From NCBI GenBank assembly GCA_024644725.1, contig JAHEHE010000006.1:1-60405 (forward strand): a stretch of 60,405 bases of DNA, read 5' to 3'. The notes beneath the pieces were generated by a model that saw only the letters and a list, made by a program, of their open reading frames with translations, had not been told where the DNA came from and made no database searches. The stretch is from Flavobacteriaceae bacterium. Lineage in GTDB: Bacteria; Bacteroidota; Bacteroidia; Flavobacteriales; Flavobacteriaceae. Shown in pieces: positions 200 to 26,812 of the stretch (position 1 is its first letter; each line of letters begins with the position of its first letter). Position numbers and translations under genes: made by a program.

Positions 200-1420
200 T
201 CAAAGAGGCATTTCTGCAACGACAAAAGTACTCCCTCCTGCGTAGATAAGGTCTTCTGGTCCAGCGTTTTTAAGAGCAGCTTCATAGGCTTGATCAACGC
301 CTCTATAGCTTTGTCCCATCAAATCAAATCTTGCCGCTTTCTGCCTGAGAACTTCTGCATCCAAACCCCTGGGGATATCGGGCCGACAAAAATAATAGTT
401 GGCCTCCTCTGGAAATAAAGGTAAAACAGTATCGAGGTCCTTGTCATTGACAAAGCCTAGTACAAAATGTAGGTTCTCTGCACCTTCTTTCATGACCTGA
501 TCCAAAACCAGTTCCAGGCCCTCGCGATTGTGCGCCGTATCACAAATGACTTTTGGATGGTGCCGAAGCACCTGGTAACGACCCTTAAGGCCCGTGTTTT
601 CAGCAACGTGAAGGAGGCCTTCCTGAAAATGGGTATCCGATATTTCAAACCCTTCTTTCCGGAGGAGCTCTAATGTCTTTAGCGCGGTTTGAAGGTTCTT
701 TACCTGATAGCGACCGATAAGATCAGTTTCAAAAATAGATTCGGACTCCTGGTTGGCTAAAACCAGCGGAGCCTTTCTTTCCAAAGTCAATTTCTTAAAT
801 ACAGGCAAGGTTTCTTCTTGTGTCTCGCCTATAACCACAGGGATTCCTGGTTTGATGATTCCCCCTTTTTCAAAAGCAATCTCGGGTAGTGTTTCTCCCA
901 AAAATTGGGTGTGATCAAGACCAATGTTGGTTATGACAGAAACCAGGGGCCTTATAATATTCGTCGAATCCAGGCGGCCTCCTAAGCCCACCTCTACAAC
1001 CGCAATATCCACCTGCTTGCGCGCAAAATGATCAAAGGCCATCCCTACCGTGAGTTCAAAAAAGGAAAGGCTGTGCTCTTCTAAAAATATCTTATTCGTC
1101 TCAACGAACAGAACTACCTCCTCCTCCGAGATCATCTCTCCGTTCACGCGAACTCTTTCGCGAAAGTCTTTGAGGTGTGGTGAGGTATAGAGGCCCACCT
1201 TGTAACCGGCGGCCTGGAGCACAGAAGCGATCATATGACTGGTGGATCCCTTGCCATTGGTCCCTGCAATATGAACGCTGGGATATTGGTTTTCAGGTTT
1301 TCCGAGATATTCAGAAAATGCTATGCTGTTGGTCAAGTCCTTTTTAAGCGCCGGAGCTCCCTGACGTTGGTACATCGGCAAACGGAAATACATCCAGTCG
1401 AGAGTCTGCTGATAGTTCAA
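200..1420 (-). CDS. folC: Bifunctional folylpolyglutamate synthase / dihydrofolate synthase
   Basis: Mur-ligase-superfamily enzyme that adds glutamate to dihydropteroate and to folates, in the cytoplasm. The 406-residue protein has the usual FolC length. Its P-loop GTNGKGST is at residues 53-60, followed by the magnesium-binding region and a C-terminal domain with the CDTAHN segment. The first codon is TTG, two bases after the stop of the upstream tonB-like gene. Family homology begins at this codon (MNYQxTLDWM), and the next in-frame ATG (residue 10) would cut into conserved sequence, so the TTG start is preferred. The tight spacing implies translational coupling with the TonB-ExbBD operon. 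It is the only complete Mur-type ligase here besides MurE. Confidence 0.93.
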   Translation of the reverse strand: MNYQQTLDWMYFRLPMYQRQGAPALKKDLTNSIAFSEYLGKPENQYPSVHIAGTNGKGSTSHMIASVLQAAGYKVGLYTSPHLKDFRERVRVNGEMISEEEVVLFVETNKIFLEEHSLSFFELTVGMAFDHFARKQVDIAVVEVGLGGRLDSTNIIRPLVSVITNIGLDHTQFLGETLPEIAFEKGGIIKPGIPVVIGETQEETLPVFKKLTLERKAPLVLANQESESIFETDLIGRYQVKNLQTALKTLELLRKEGFEISDTHFQEGLLHVAENTGLKGRYQVLRHHPKVICDTAHNREGLELVLDQVMKEGAENLHFVLGFVNDKDLDTVLPLFPEEANYYFCRPDIPRGLDAEVLRQKAARFDLMGQSYRGVDQAYEAALKNAGPEDLIYAGGSTFVVAEMPL

Positions 1421-20390: not shown

Positions 20391-21122
20391 TTATTTTTTT
20401 TCACAAACGATCTGGTCGTTGAACTTGAGGTTTATCGTTTTGTAATTTGTGTATGTGCTGTCCAACATGGTCTTGTTGTAAAAAACCTTGAGTTTAGCAA
20501 TTTTCTTTTCGATTCTCTGCAGGTCTCCCAAAAGTATCTTTTGCTCTCCCACACGGGTCTTCAGCTCGTATTCAAAGTGTTCCCCTTTCTCGATCATGTC
20601 TACAGCAATAATCTGCTTCTTGAGGAACTCATCTTCGTTTATGATCCTGGACAAGACAATCAAATCGTTGTCACCCTCCTCGGAAATCGTATCAGCGGTT
20701 ATAGGAACTCGTGCAGAATAATTATCGGATAAGGGCATTCTTTTACCCTGTGTATCATAATAATAGGCTTCCTTGTCACAGGCTACTCGTAAAACAGGTG
20801 TTCTTTGCTTGATTATGGCCCCCAGTTCCCCACTCAACGTCAGATAGATCTCAGCGTTTTCAACCATTTCATGGTCGCCTAAATACGTTTCCAACTGCCT
20901 CAAATTTATATTTTCTTTCGGTTGCAATCCGGAGGTGTTTAACTTTTGTATTAACAACTTATTAACCGTTTCATAGCTCACAAACAGGTTTTCACCGTTC
21001 TCAAAAACCACATTCACTCCGATGTCCTCCCGCAGGGAGCTCCTGTGTGCGGCAAAGCCATAAAGAAAAACGATTGCCACTGCTAAACCTATGAATATTA
21101 ATGTATTGTAATATTTTCTCAT
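20391..21122 (-). CDS. ftsQ: Cell division protein FtsQ (DivIB-like)
   Basis: Bitopic inner-membrane protein of the divisome. The 243-residue protein has a short cytoplasmic start, one transmembrane helix (about residues 8-26) and a periplasmic region. Its beta-rich FtsQ domain includes VENAEIYLTLSGELGAIIKQRTPVLRV. Sequence conservation in this family is low, so the call rests on topology, this segment and position directly before ftsA. Its ATG is unusually exposed: the expected upstream neighbour murC is missing, and only a 94-base spacer separates it from murG. Confidence 0.9.
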   Translation of the reverse strand: MRKYYNTLIFIGLAVAIVFLYGFAAHRSSLREDIGVNVVFENGENLFVSYETVNKLLIQKLNTSGLQPKENINLRQLETYLGDHEMVENAEIYLTLSGELGAIIKQRTPVLRVACDKEAYYYDTQGKRMPLSDNYSARVPITADTISEEGDNDLIVLSRIINEDEFLKKQIIAVDMIEKGEHFEYELKTRVGEQKILLGDLQRIEKKIAKLKVFYNKTMLDSTYTNYKTINLKFNDQIVCEKK

Positions 21123-21216
21123 TTCCGGTTCTGAATTAAAACTATGGCAACCCGTGAATTATCCCCTCTAAATCCAATGGAGTTGCCATAGTTGTCAAAG
21201 TACTTAGCACAAAATT
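21123..21216. repeat. murG-ftsQ junction where murC is expected, holding a 12-bp inverted repeat
   Basis: This 94-base spacer replaces the roughly 1.35-kb murC gene that normally lies here in flavobacterial division clusters. AACTATGGCAAC (21140-21151) is repeated in perfect inverted orientation at 21182-21193 across a 30-base interval. With a single-base bulge, two further G:C pairs extend the stem. Read on the minus strand, one frame stays open across the spacer and its TGA overlaps the ftsQ ATG. It has no start codon in the spacer and no MurC-like sequence that I recognise. Confidence 0.7.
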
Positions 21217-22308
21217 TTACTTTACTATCTTTTCGACCTCATCCGCGATCCTTCGGGTTGCGTCCGGTAAGGCCAATTTTTTTATGTTTTCACTGAGATC
21301 CTTTCTTTTCTCAGGGTCCCCAACAATTCCGAGGAGAACCTCTTCAAAAGACTCGAGTTCACTTTCCTTGATCATAAGAGCGGCATCCTCATTAACTACT
21401 GAAAGCGCATTCTTTGTCTGATGATCCTCGGCTACGTTAGGTGATGGAATGAACAAAACCGGTTTTCCCACTATGCATAGCTCCGATATCGTTCCGGCTC
21501 CGGCCCGACTGATCAACACATCCGCAGCTGCGTAAAACAGATCCATACGCTGAATAAAGGCCCTCATGACCACGCCCTCTTTTTTTCCAAGGGCCTCAAA
21601 CCTGTCAATGTAGAGCTTGCCGGTCTGCCAAAGCACCTGTAGCCCCTTATCCAGCAAGGTTTCCAGGTGCTGGGCAATCATTTCATTGATGCGCTTCGCG
21701 CCCAGGCTCCCGCCAATTACCGCAATCGTTGTTTTTTTGGGGTCAAGTCCGAAATGAGCAAGTCCTTCTGCCCTCTTGCTTTCGATATCGAGCAGATCCT
21801 GGCGCACCGGATTGCCCGTCTTTATCATCTTCTCCTTTGGAAAATATTTCTCCAATCCGTCATAGGCCACACAGATCTTCTCCGCTTTTTTTGCCAACAG
21901 CTTGTTTGTGATCCCCGGATACGAATTCTGCTCCTGGATCAGACTCGGAATGTTCTTTAAACTGGCCATGTAAAGCGTGGGGCCACTGGCGTACCCTCCC
22001 GTTCCGATAACGACATTGGGCCTGAATTTCCTGAGAATCTTACCGGCTCTGTAGAGGCTCTGCAGCAACTTGAAAGGAAAGCTGAGGTTCTTCAGCGTCA
22101 GGCTCCTTTGGATGCCACTGATGTTCAGTCCTTCTATTTTGTATCCTAGCTGCGGTATTTTTTCCATCTCCATGCGCCCGTTCGCCCCGACAAACAGGAA
22201 TTCAGCCTCAGGGTGCCTTGCCTTCAATTCGTTGGCAATGGCAACCGCGGGATAGATATGCCCTCCCGTACCTCCTCCGCTGAGCAGTATGTTAACCGAC
22301 GGCTTCAT
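21217..22308 (-). CDS. murG: UDP-GlcNAc:undecaprenyl-PP-MurNAc-pentapeptide GlcNAc transferase MurG
   Basis: Peripheral membrane glycosyltransferase (GT28) that converts lipid I to lipid II. The 363-residue protein has the complete two-domain GT-B fold. The N-terminal [17 protein letters not shown] binds the acceptor and phosphates. [31 protein letters not shown] and [12 protein letters not shown] are the diagnostic MurG segments. Its 5' end overlaps the 3' end of ftsW by 17 bases, consistent with translational coupling. It looks fully functional, which makes the loss of neighbouring murC and most of murD the more notable. Confidence 0.97.
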
Positions 22309-23494
22309 GCAGTATATCTAAAGGATTTTCGAGTTCTTTTTTTACATTTTTAACTTGTTGCTCCTCATCTCTGGCACTGACGCTAAGCACGATACCTATA
22401 GCGAAACAAGTCATCCAGATCGACGTACCTCCCGTGCTGATCAGGGGCAATGGCTGTCCGGTAACCGGAAAAAGGCCAACGGCCACTGCCATGTTGATCA
22501 TGGCCTGAAATATGATGGGCAAACCGACGCCCAGAACGAGCAGAGTTCCAAAGATCGTAGATGTCTTAGTGGCGATGATCACCAGCCGGAATAGCAGACC
22601 CAGGTAGAGAATTATGATCATGAGCGCGCCTAATAGACCGAATTCCTCGCCAATGATGGCGTAGATAAAATCGGAAGACGACTGCGGCAGAAAATTCTTC
22701 TGAACGCTTTTCCCCGGTCCTTTTCCATAGATCTCACCTGATGCTATGGCAATTTTGGCCTTCTCGGCCTGGTAATTGTCCTCTTCGTTGCCGGAGACAA
22801 AATTTTCAATCCGACTCGACCAGGTTCCCACACGGCTGTTTTTCATGGCATCGGGAAATGCACGAGCCGACAGAATGAACAGGGCCAAAATCAGGACCCC
22901 TGCGCCAACAATCCCAGCAAGGTACTTTACCGGATATCCTCCCAAAAAACAAAGGATCAGAATCATGGCAAAACTTATCGCGGTTGTCGAGAAATTTGCA
23001 GGGAGAATCAAGGCGAGCACAATGCCAACGGGCACCCAAAGGTAGAGCATGCTCTCCTTGAAGAGAATGTCCTTCTCCTTGTTGCGCGACAAATATCGGG
23101 CAACATAAATCATGAGTATAACGGAAGCCAAGGTGGAGGTTTGAAAGCCGATGCCGACAAAGGGAATGCGAATCCATCGACTTGCATTGGCCCCGTCAAT
23201 GACCGTACCCTGGGTCAGGGTATACACGAGCAAAAGAATTACAACCGGAAGAATCAAAACGGATAAACCGCTGAAGTACCGGTAGGGAATCTTGTGAGTC
23301 GCATAGACGATGCCAAAACCAAGAACCAGCAAAAGAGCATGTTTCAAAAGATACCCCAGGGTCGTTCCCTTACCCGCAACGTAGACCAGGTTCGTACTGG
23401 CGCTGTAAACGGGAAGAAACGAAAATAAGGCAAGCGCACCTATGATCGCCCAGATCGTCCTGTCTCCTTTTATGTTCTTAAAAAAATCGGTCAT
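22292..23494 (-). CDS. ftsW: Lipid II glycan polymerase FtsW (SEDS family)
   Basis: Ten-helix SEDS glycosyltransferase that polymerises glycan strands at the division site with its PBP partner FtsI. The 400-residue protein shows the full set of hydrophobic helices. Conserved loops include [12 protein letters not shown] after the fourth helix and [18 protein letters not shown], whose Asp lies in the catalytic loop of the family. The segment [17 protein letters not shown] is near the C-terminus. It follows the MurD-like remnant by 17 bases. Confidence 0.95.
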
Positions 23495-23511: not shown

Positions 23512-24063
23512 TTACAGTTGTCTTACGGCTTCTTTGAATCGATCTCCCCTCGCCTGGTAATTCGCGTAATGCTCATCACGTCCGCAACACGCAGGAGAAA
23601 AAAGAACGCTGTCGCCCTCATCGCTCAATTTGTAAGCAATCTTTACCGCTTCCTCGAGGTTGTTGGTCTCTATCATAAAATCAACGACATTGGCAAAGGT
23701 GTGTATGAGGTGATCGTTGTCTTCCCCAAGACAAATAATGGCCTTTACCTTCTCGTTGACAAGTGGCAACAACATATCGCAGTCACTTCCCCGTCCAACC
23801 CCTCCGGCAATCCAAACGGTTTCATTCTCCATGCTTTCAAGGGCGTAGAATGTGGCATTGACGTTTCCTGCTTTGGAATCGTTGATGTATTCAACACCAT
23901 TGATGCGCAATACCTTTTCCAATCGGTGCTCCTCACTTTCAAAATCGGTGAGACATTCCCGTATAGTCTCCTTTCTCACCCGCATCAGATCTGACAAGGT
24001 GCTGGAAGCCATGGCGTTTTTTACGTTGAAGTTGGATTGACTTGCGAAGGATGAAATACTCAT
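23512..24063 (-). CDS. MurD-like C-terminal domain protein, N-terminally truncated with altered ligase motifs
   Basis: This occupies the place of murD between mraY and ftsW but encodes only 183 residues, against about 445 for a complete MurD. It aligns by eye with the last 40 percent of flavobacterial MurD (NVKNAMASSTLSDLMRVRKE, then EHRLE at 45-49). The UDP-binding domain and the ATP-binding domain with its P-loop are absent. Key motifs are changed: the HN pair before VKNAM is FN (12-13), DSKATN is DSKAGN (62-67), the GGxDKG motif reads GGVGRG (87-92), and SPACAS reads SPACCG (156-161). In E. coli MurD these regions bind ATP, metal and D-Glu. The frame has no stop or frameshift, so it may be a retained non-catalytic protein rather than simple debris. 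No MurD N-terminal sequence was found in the 47 bases upstream. It should not be annotated as an active ligase. Confidence 0.82.
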   Translation of the reverse strand: MSISSFASQSNFNVKNAMASSTLSDLMRVRKETIRECLTDFESEEHRLEKVLRINGVEYINDSKAGNVNATFYALESMENETVWIAGGVGRGSDCDMLLPLVNEKVKAIICLGEDNDHLIHTFANVVDFMIETNNLEEAVKIAYKLSDEGDSVLFSPACCGRDEHYANYQARGDRFKEAVRQL

Positions 24064-24110: not shown

Positions 24111-25343
24111 TTATCGGACCTTGAGTGTCAGGATAGAGATCACGGCGAGCATGATCCCGACGATCCAGAAACGCGTTACAATCTTGCTTTCGTGGTATCC
24201 CTTTTTCTGATAGTGGTGATGCAAAGGAGACATCAGAAAGATTCTCCTTCCTTCACCGAATTTTTTCTTTGTGTACTTGAAATACGACACCTGGAGAACC
24301 ACAGAAAGGTTTTCCGCCAGGAAAATGCCCGCAAGGATCGGAATTAAAAACTCCTTGCGCACGGAAAGGGCCAGAACAGCAATCACCGCCCCGATGGTCA
24401 GGCTTCCCGTATCTCCCATGAAAACCTGGGCCGGGTAGGTATTGTACCACAAGAACCCTACGAGCCCGCCGACAAAGGCACTGATAAAAATGGTCATCTC
24501 TCCTGATTCCGGGATGTACATCACATTGAGGTAGTCTGCAAATATGATGTTGCCCGAGACCCAGGCAAAAATGGCCAGGGTCAGTACGATTACAGCCGAA
24601 CTCCCCGCAGCCAGTCCATCTATCCCGTCTGTCAGGTTCGCTCCGTTGGAAACTGCCGTGATGATGAAGATCACAACCAGAACAAAAAGCAACCAAACGT
24701 AATTTTCGGTCCAGTCGCCCATCCATTTGATAAGGCTGGCATAATCGAATTCGTTGTTCTTCACAAAGGGAATCGTTGTCTTTGTAGATTTGTGAGCCTC
24801 TCCAAACTTGTTTGTAGGCACTTGCAGTTCCAGCATTTGAGACACCTCTTTTTGAGGAAGCTTCTGCTTGACCACTACTCCCGGGTTGAAATAGAGCATG
24901 AGTCCAACGAAAGTTCCCAGGGTCACCTGGCCGACAATTTTAAATCGTCCCTTGAGTCCTTCCTTGTTCTTTTTAAAGACCTTGATGTAGTCATCTATGA
25001 ATCCGATGGCCCCCATCCAGATTGTCGTCACGATCAATATGACGATGTAGATATTGTCGAGCCGGGCTAAAAGAAACACGGGCACGAGTGTCGCCAGGAT
25101 AATGATGATTCCCCCCATGGTCGGGGTGCCCTGCTTTTCATTTTGCCCTTCCAGCCCGAGGTCACGCACCGACTCCCCAACTTGCAAGCGCCGCAATTTG
25201 TCGATGATCTGACGGCCATAGATGGTGGAGATCAAAAGCGAGAATGCAAAAGCCAATCCGGCTCGGAACGAAATGTATTGAAACAGACCGGTACCGGGCA
25301 GGTTGTAGTTTTGATCGAGATATTCAAAAAGATAGTAGAGCAT
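24111..25343 (-). CDS. mraY: Phospho-N-acetylmuramoyl-pentapeptide transferase MraY
   Basis: Integral membrane enzyme that transfers phospho-MurNAc-pentapeptide to undecaprenyl phosphate, making lipid I. The 410-residue protein has about 10 helices and the usual Bacteroidota insertion near residues 155-200. The diagnostic [44 protein letters not shown] and [12 protein letters not shown] motifs are all present, including the Asp and His residues of the active site. Five bases separate it from murE. It needs a UDP-MurNAc-pentapeptide, the product of the MurC-MurD-MurE-MurF series, so the organism must still make that precursor. Confidence 0.97.
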
Positions 25344-25348
25344 TCTCC

Positions 25349-26812
25349 TTATTTGTTCATTTTGGTTAGTATGTCATTGGTAATCTCAAAATCGTCGAAA
25401 TCGAATCGCTCGTTTCCTATGATCTGGTAAGTTTCATGACCTTTTCCCGCCACCAGGATGATGTCACCCTCCTTTGCGAGCGAACACGCGGTCTTGATGG
25501 CCTGTTTTCTGTCAACAATTGAAAGGGTCTTCTTATAGTTTTCAGGCTGAACACCCTCTTCCACTTCTTTGATGATGCTCTCCGGGTCCTCGCTTCTCGG
25601 ATTGTCAGAGGTGAAGACCACCTGATTGCTCAAAGCAGAAGCGATGTGCCCCATTTTGGGTCGTTTTGTTCGATCCCTGTCACCGCCGCATCCGACCACC
25701 GTAATGAGTTGCTCGTTGTTCGTGCGGATCGTATTGATGGTCTCCAGGACATTTTTCAATGCATCAGGCGTATGGGCATAATCCACGATGGCATTTATTC
25801 CGCCTTTTGACAAGGCGTGTTGAAATCTGCCTTCAACATTCTCCAACTCGCTGATGATCCTGAGATTGTCCTGGGGCTCGAACCCGAGAAGGTCCGCAAC
25901 AGCATAAATCGCAAGGAGATTGTAGGCATTGAACGAACCTATCAATCGGGTCCAGACCTCTTTCTCGTTGATTTGCAGGAGCAGGCCTGTGAATTGATTC
26001 TCCATGATTCGGGCCTTGTAATCCGCAACCGTTTTGAGCGCATAGCTGTACTTCTTTGCCCGAGTATTCTGAACCATCACAGGTCCGTTTTTGTCATCGG
26101 CGTTGTAAAGAGCGAAGGCATCCGTTTCCAGTTGGTCAAAGAAGGATTTCTTGACATCCCTGTAGGTTGCGAAATCCCCGTGATAGTCGAGATGATCATG
26201 GGTCAAATTCGTAAATACGCCTCCTTTGAAATGAAGACCTGCCGTGCGCCCCTGATCAATCCCGTGGGAACTCACCTCCATGAAGCAATAATCTACACCC
26301 TGGTCAACCATTTGCCTGAGCATCTTGTTAATGGTTATCGAATCTGGTGTGGTATGAGTTGCTGGATATTCAGATTCACTTATGAGAATTCGTATGGTCG
26401 AGATCAGACCAGAAGGGCGTCCTGCTTTTTGAAACATTCTGTAGAGCAAAGTAGCTATGGTCGTCTTACCATTTGTTCCGGTAACTCCCACAAGTTCCAT
26501 TTGCTCTGAAGGATTATCGAAAAAATTCGATGCGGCCTGGGCCAGGGCCAGTTGAGTGTCTTTAACGGCCACATAGGTGATCTGGTCATGCGTTTTTGCA
26601 GGAAGCTCTTCACAAAGGATGGCACGAGCGCCTTTCTCAATCGCCCCATCGATGAACTCATGACCATCAAAATTCAAACCTCTTTGAGCGACGAACAAGG
26701 ACCCTTCACCCACACGTCTTGAATCAAATTCGATCTGTTCAATTTCTGTGGCGGTCGATCCCACTACTGCCTCAACCGATACCCCATACAATATGTCTTT
26801 CAGCAGTTTCAT
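25349..26812 (-). CDS. murE: UDP-MurNAc-L-Ala-D-Glu:meso-diaminopimelate ligase MurE
   Basis: Adds the third amino acid of the peptidoglycan stem peptide. The 487-residue protein has all three Mur-ligase domains. The UDP-binding region covers residues 1-105, the central ATPase domain has the P-loop GTNGKTT at 112-118, and the C-terminal domain contains [11 protein letters not shown]. The DNPR motif near residue 402 is the known signature for meso-diaminopimelate rather than lysine. This indicates a Gram-negative-type peptidoglycan. Its intact state contrasts with the stripped murD two genes downstream. It is one base from ftsI. Confidence 0.97.

Follow-up and report, generated by a model that had tools for sequence, protein, structure and literature searches.

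In Lutimonas and four related genera of the Flavobacteriaceae, murC has been lost, and so have the two thirds of murD that encode the UDP- and ATP-binding domains; a short open frame that matches the C-terminal part of MurD persists at the murD position. The window in which we studied this frame is a stretch of 60,405 nucleotides and makes up a whole contig of a 2.83-Mb draft genome in 161 contigs, 90% complete (G000). Both MurC and MurD are usually regarded as essential enzymes and as targets for antibacterials. An earlier note on this DNA had described a reduced MurD in an otherwise intact division cluster; that description was too narrow, since murC is missing as well and the double loss extends over five genera. 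The finding is therefore larger than first noted: MurC and the MurD ligase are missing from several related genera that apparently still make wall precursors.

The frame (23512..24063, minus strand, as are all genes located below unless stated) starts with ATG and encodes 183 amino acids. It lies between mraY (24111..25343) upstream and ftsW (22292..23494) downstream, which is the position of murD in E. coli when gene orders are compared. Against the MurD model TIGR01087 it aligns to positions 271-441 of 441 with 153 bits, missing the curated cut-off of 211.95 bits, and the sole Pfam domain matched is Mur_ligase_C (PF02875; 44 bits, gathering cut-off 28.4). The Pfam search found no ATP-binding central domain (Mur_ligase_M, PF08245) in the frame, which comprises the Mur_ligase_C domain and the end of the central domain. 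As the earlier note had it, only the C-terminal part of MurD is encoded here and the UDP- and ATP-binding domains are gone. The full-length MurD model found no better match in the whole genome than the 183-residue frame, and Mur_ligase_M exceeds its cut-off in only four proteins of this genome, namely MurE, MurF, an Mpl-like protein and FolC. Family searches for a second complete MurD or MurC elsewhere in the genome came back empty. The encoded protein is 58-63% identical to the corresponding region of nine full-length MurDs from other genera. The AlphaFold2 model of the remnant (mean pLDDT 77.7, pTM 0.68; residues 1-12 and 41-44 under 50) has the predicted fold of the MurD C-domain, and its top 33 fold matches in the PDB are all MurD (TMq 0.64-0.69). 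The remnant resembles the MurD C-domain in gene position, sequence and predicted fold.

Several positions that presumably matter for catalysis are altered. We take K319, T321 and S415 of E. coli MurD (numbering of the mature protein) to contact D-Glu or the nucleotide. Together with K348, they read K/T/K/S in all 64 full-length MurDs compared and K/G/R/G in the window, where one of the four is kept: the former SKATN motif is now SKAGN (23863..23877), replacing T321; the former GGVDKGND-type loop is GVGRGSDC (23779..23802), with K348 changed to R; and the former SPACAS(F/Y)D loop with its following residues is SPACCGRDEHYANYQA (23551..23598), in which S415 is replaced and one residue inserted. 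The claim that the contact residues had been rewritten consequently stands for T321, K348 and S415 and falls for K319, which is still K. Likewise, the change to SPACCG with its extra residue is real in the window, and the insertion after SPAC otherwise occurs in the closest relative only. In MurD, Lys348 and adjacent residues are close to D-Glu, as stated in PMC8788868. The N-terminal segment, residues 1-41 (MSISSFA..NFNVKNAMAS...; 23941..24063), is strongly conserved in Lutimonas and helical, at low confidence, in the predicted model; here the HN of full MurD is FN, and the change from H to F before VKNAM that the earlier note had seen in one sequence recurs in 20/20 Lutimonas copies. Across these copies K319, T321, K348 and S415 are retained in 15, 2, 8 and 11 of 20, respectively, and among the copies from the other genera in 6, 1, 1 and 0 of 10. 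ND, W84, SPA and the C-terminal G..F are invariant in the 20 Lutimonas copies, NDS is found in most copies, and DKG and SPACAS are still present in some Lutimonas copies.

A protein search recovered the same truncated frame from 20 of the 22 Lutimonas genomes; the copies are 67-93% identical to that of the window, have 180-214 codons and no internal stops, and all begin with MSI. Carriers include a single-contig, 100%-complete genome (G021) and the isolate L. halocynthiae; the search did not find it in two drafts (G017 and G018, 61% and 83% complete). Among 80 loci fetched, 64 encode a full MurD, 15 are truncated and one (L142) runs off its contig, and of the 15 one comes from Lutimonas halocynthiae CECT 8444 and the others from metagenome-assembled genomes. 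In a set of 100 genomes from 99 genera of Flavobacteriaceae, MurD exceeds its cut-off in 95; the five others are two Lutimonas and the drafts G077, G082 and G101. An assembly gap, a misassembly or a pseudogene might be suspected in one contig of a 161-contig draft, but with 20/22 genomes of the genus carrying the same frame, a 100%-complete single-contig genome and an isolate among them, and with selection acting on the frame, this explanation was rejected and retains a negligible probability.

In Lutimonas the remnant is under purifying selection. Between the window and its relative G011, its dN/dS is 0.039, beside 0.022 for ftsW, 0.033 for murG, 0.048 for murE and 0.125 for ftsQ, and ftsA, mraY, ftsW, murG and murE together span 0.012-0.048. 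Sixteen Lutimonas pairs had a usable dS, and their median dN/dS of 0.093 (range 0.026-0.205) is well below 1, as the earlier note had proposed for a retained protein. The corresponding C-terminal parts of full MurDs give a median of 0.021 (range 0-0.179; 34 pairs), so that the remnant is genuinely constrained, but about fourfold less strongly than the enzyme. Its distribution differs as well: mean dN in the pocket loops versus the rest is 0.009 versus 0.031 in full MurD and 0.088 versus 0.093 in the remnant, whose D-Glu/ATP pocket no longer carries any extra constraint. With the frame kept free of stops across congeners, pocket loops no more conserved than the rest and contacts replaced, the remnant is a retained, selected protein, probably without ligase function, rather than a gap or random decay; on both points our reading agrees with the earlier note. 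In the same comparison with G011 (L064), dS is 0.30 for ftsQ (20391-21122), compared with 0.94-1.33 for the other six dcw frames, a difference suggestive of recent recombination at this gene.

The loss of murC is visible in the same cluster. Between murG (21217..22308) and ftsQ (20391..21122) only 94 bases remain (21123..21216) where murC would be expected; in G060, which lies outside the clade, the same cluster holds a full murD (443 aa) and, in the murG-ftsQ slot, a murC of 451 aa. MurE is intact (25349..26812), with 637.9 bits to the DAP-adding ligase model NF001126 against a cut-off of 373, and folC (200..1420) is the sole other Mur-superfamily ligase of the window found by family search. 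The names murE, murF and folC in G000 rest on family searches, whereas mraY, ftsW, murG, ftsQ, ftsA, ftsZ, ftsI, ftsL, mraW and mraZ were named from reading frames and gene order, which for mraY, ftsW and murG was compared with E. coli. No protein of the 22 Lutimonas genomes exceeds the MurC cut-off. In 19 of them the best match of the MurC model is the Mpl-like protein (1.7e-64 to 2.0e-71), and in G006, G011 and G013 the model yields MurE- or MurF-level matches only. The two 100%-complete genomes G002 and G021 contain exactly four Mur_ligase_M proteins each, which we named MurE, MurF, Mpl-like and FolC by size, position and their homologues in G000, and no fifth match appears in either even at E <= 1. 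Four of the 22 genomes also encode Mur-domain proteins of 862-898 codons (on contigs C17 of G001, C75 of G005, C135 of G017 and C171 of G019), which from their size are probably cyanophycin synthetases.

Beyond Lutimonas, we searched 395 Flavobacteriaceae genomes, all at least 90% complete, for MurC. It exceeds the cut-off in 361 and falls under it in 34; 17 of the latter are just under (best E about 1e-95 to 1e-99), and in 15 the match is no better than Mpl level, or there is none at E <= 1e-30. These 15 belong to Lutimonas (G000, G001, G002, G021) and to the genera g127 (G150, G308, G414), g192 (G215, G353), g142 (G165, G318, G421), g215 (G238, G365) and g57 (G077). Two genomes outside the clade, G244 (C1:997101-997967) and G348 (C75:89413-89796), have a full MurD and MurC in weak pieces only, which may reflect a frameshift, real splitting or early loss. 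A MurD search of 13 non-Lutimonas genomes, that is the eleven MurC-negative ones plus G244 and G348, returned the remnant at E <= 1e-37 in eight and diverged copies in G353 (2e-15) and G215 (1e-7); G077 gave none, and in G244 and G348 the match was the full MurD. In all seven clusters read (G150, G353, G215, G165, G238, G414, G308) the remnant sits between mraY and ftsW, and murG is directly followed by an ftsQ-like frame in 5/5 clusters with both on the contig. The copy of G150 reaches 48.2 bits with PF02875, over the cut-off of 28.4. Those of g192 (L297 9247-9783, plus strand; L298 9339-9857, minus strand) score 24.5 and 23.7 bits, under the Pfam cut-off; they are strongly diverged and recognised mainly by position. 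The genus g57 was rejected as a member of the clade: G077 is an 8% contaminated draft with no remnant and an Mpl of the outside type, and it is probably an outsider. Over the nine clusters read (the window, G021 and these seven), mraY, ftsW and murG are kept and the neighbouring dcw genes are intact, and wall precursors are therefore probably still made.

Lutimonas, g142, g127, g215 and g192 cluster together (support 0.994) in an unrooted FastTree phylogeny of six dcw proteins, which has no outgroup beyond the family, includes two genomes each of g192 and g215 and leaves out G044, with fewer than three of the six proteins. This grouping suggests that the double loss of murC and murD likely happened once. 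This is not certain, because the Mpl tree places g127 on a long branch with the outside genome G063 (support 0.963) and not beside Lutimonas and g142; a single origin also presumes a root among the other genera, since midpoint rooting of the six-protein tree falls on the long g192 branch.

Among the Mur ligases that remain, only the Mpl-like protein is of a type for which ligation to UDP-MurNAc itself is known. In G000 it scores 166.2 of 388.7 bits with the Mpl model TIGR01081 and 231.6 of 335.1 with the MurC model, and by these scores it appears to be only a distant relative of Mpl. The gene is present in 12 of the 14 clade genomes of the 395-genome set (G077 excluded); the MurC-model search did not find it in G165 and G238, nor in the Lutimonas genomes G006, G011 and G013. 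The clade proteins retain the P-loop GSHGKT and the acidic EGDEY. A characterised Mpl accepts L-Ala-D-Glu and L-Ala weakly (PMC3060825). This Psychrobacter Mpl is reported there to turn over L-Ala-D-Glu at 1.4 per min and L-Ala at 0.7, both at 15 mM, and the tripeptide at 260 per min at 0.25 mM, so that it is about 190 times slower on L-Ala-D-Glu than on the tripeptide despite 60 times more substrate; according to the same paper, a murC mutant is rescued by overexpression of E. coli mpl. In contrast to the characterised enzyme, the G000 protein lies below both the Mpl and the MurC cut-offs, and its role as main entry enzyme is our proposal. Comparing seven outside with 19 clade sequences chosen by availability, G348 not included, we found seven clade-diagnostic sites (fixed outside, different in 70% or more of the clade). 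Of these, four fall within nine residues after HNxxN (hypergeometric p = 1.5e-5, the stretch having been chosen on inspection of the result). In L032 (5127-6482, plus strand) this stretch is codons 282-290, where W, Q, M and D, fixed in the seven outside Mpls, are mostly lost in the clade; the segment corresponds to the start of the MurD remnant.

A putative dipeptide epimerase is the other candidate component. An ortholog at E <= 1e-70, a cut-off set after the scores were seen, occurs in 14/15 clade and 11/31 other genomes (p = 3e-4, the genomes being related), the latter hand-picked, half of them for small size, with G077 counted among them. By genus the association is weak (5/5 versus 11/26, p = 0.043), and among genomes up to 2.4 Mb the counts are 7/8 and 1/15. 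Weaker relatives (33-35% identity) are found in the outside genomes G196, G340, G041 and G189; counting these four, p is 0.0016 with G077 inside. The G021 and G215 proteins both exceed the cut-offs of the enolase-superfamily domains PF13378 and PF02746. The best PDB match of the clade epimerase is 3iji, deposited as a muconate cycloisomerase and presumably a dipeptide epimerase, followed by 1jpd and 3jva, which the depositors name L-Ala-D/L-Glu epimerase and dipeptide epimerase. The substrate of the clade enzyme is uncertain, because the best NCBIfam model of the G021 protein is the N-acetyl-D-Glu racemase DgcA (219.3 of 400), ahead of the L-Ala-D/L-Glu epimerase (154.2 of 343), and every curated cut-off is missed. 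The gene adjoins the dcw cluster in G215. At two g127 loci (L345 5978-6586, L346 13102-13984) there is no dapB-sized frame between parB and lepB, where we would expect dapB in Flavobacteriaceae, and the epimerase gene follows lepB and a WbqC-like gene (names from reading). MurI exceeds its cut-off in 19/22 Lutimonas genomes and is present in 6/10 of the other clade genomes, being absent from both g192 genomes, G308 and G365; in most of the clade free D-Glu therefore probably still has a user.

From the observed losses and the conserved remnant we infer, at a probability of roughly 40%, a wall built through the Mpl-like ligase and a dipeptide epimerase, with a non-catalytic remnant serving as a scaffold. 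In this proposal the loss of murC and of the UDP- and ATP-binding part of murD most likely happened once; the epimerase would supply the D-Glu residue; and the remnant would act as a binding or scaffold module, not as a ligase, in a cytoplasmic complex with Mur enzymes, MraY and MurG, perhaps docked on the Mpl-like ligase. Its fully specified form, in which L-Ala-L-Glu is epimerised, the resulting L-Ala-D-Glu is joined to UDP-MurNAc by the Mpl-like ligase and the MurD C-domain is a non-catalytic subunit of the precursor complex with a possible docking role, is a more doubtful, tentative version. The dipeptide route is favoured because of the type of the Mpl-like ligase, the distribution of the epimerase, the loss of MurI in g192 and the changes in the clade Mpl. 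Against it count the retention of MurI elsewhere, the uncertain substrate of the epimerase and the missing source of the dipeptide: no enzyme making L-Ala-Glu was found. The slow turnover of L-Ala-D-Glu by the published Mpl, the epimerase orthologs outside the clade, the five genomes in which the Mpl-like gene was not found, the position of g127 in the Mpl tree and the weaker selection on the remnant also weigh against the proposal.

Nearly as likely is a replacement of MurC and MurD by one or two ligases from outside the Mur superfamily, for example of the ATP-grasp or an adenylating type, that would use L-Ala and free D-Glu, with the remnant as a partner or scaffold. The widespread MurI of Lutimonas, which suggests a user for D-Glu, and the lack of a fifth Mur_ligase_M protein in G002 and G021 fit such a replacement, but no candidate has come to light and g192 does without MurI. 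ATP-grasp_4 (PF13535), the one family searched for an extra ATP-grasp ligase, gave nothing specific to the genus in G000 or G021, where it matches only a Ddl-sized frame and a frame of 951-959 codons taken for carbamoyl-phosphate synthase; it has 5-8 matches in G001, G002 and G008 and 3-7 in outside genomes. Nor was a clade-specific ligase found beside dcw, mpl, murF, murI, ddl or the epimerase, in the small part of each genome that was read. Alternatively, the remnant might still contribute the amino-acid-binding third to a split ligase, its C-domain assisting the Mpl-like protein or MurE in trans in the addition of D-Glu. The fold predicted to be kept, the retained core positions (SPA, W84 and, in most copies, NDS), the DKG and SPACAS of some Lutimonas copies and the altered Mpl segment beside the equivalent interface would all suit it. 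Such a division of labour is nevertheless unlikely, given that the D-Glu contacts T321, K348 and S415 are lost in the window and many Lutimonas copies and nearly everywhere in the other genera, that the pocket loops carry no extra constraint and that the g192 copies are barely recognisable.

It is similarly improbable that the clade relies on imported peptidoglycan peptides, the Mpl-like ligase joining a scavenged tri- or dipeptide to UDP-MurNAc so that the first two stem residues are not made de novo. The presence of this ligase in most clade genomes and the loss of MurI from g192 would agree with scavenging; yet tripeptide uptake would be expected to render MurE dispensable, and MurE, with a dN/dS of 0.048 in one pair, is strongly selected; most genomes also keep MurI, and L. 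halocynthiae is a named strain. A reduction or loss of peptidoglycan with its genes decaying could explain why two core enzymes are absent, but we consider it very improbable in view of the intact dcw neighbourhood in all nine clusters and the low dN/dS of ftsA, mraY, ftsW, murG and murE in the window-G011 pair.

From MurD itself the remnant differs in lacking the UDP- and ATP-binding domains and several D-Glu/ATP contacts, in a genome where no MurC was found. In the MurD2/MurL system of Xanthomonas, as outlined in PMC8788868, MurD2 is a MurD-like Mur ligase whose substrate is the MurC product, and the substrate of MurL is the UDP-linked dipeptide; the clade has neither MurC nor a MurD-type ligase, and the epimerase proposed here is an enolase-superfamily protein that would act on the free dipeptide. 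The earlier note had named this pair as a possible substitute, and its MurD2 half is excluded in G002 and G021, whose four Mur_ligase_M proteins are all accounted for. A looser parallel comes from the fold search, in which chains Q of 9epc and 8ras rank 38 and 47 among the matches of the remnant model. We take both chains to be PAP11, the MurE-like protein of the plastid-encoded RNA polymerase, likewise a Mur-fold protein kept within another complex, although it belongs to plant plastids, derives from a different Mur ligase and sits in a different complex. Among the open-licence PubMed Central articles listed by our searches, no title or abstract start pointed to a published account of the Lutimonas murD remnant or of Flavobacteriaceae without MurC and MurD.

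Overall, the wall of these bacteria is probably built by an unrecognised route. With a cultivable lineage that lacks MurC and MurD and has MurE, MurF, MraY and MurG, an alternative way of adding the first two residues of the stem peptide becomes testable, and the remnant represents a natural separation of the catalytic and the possible structural roles of MurD.
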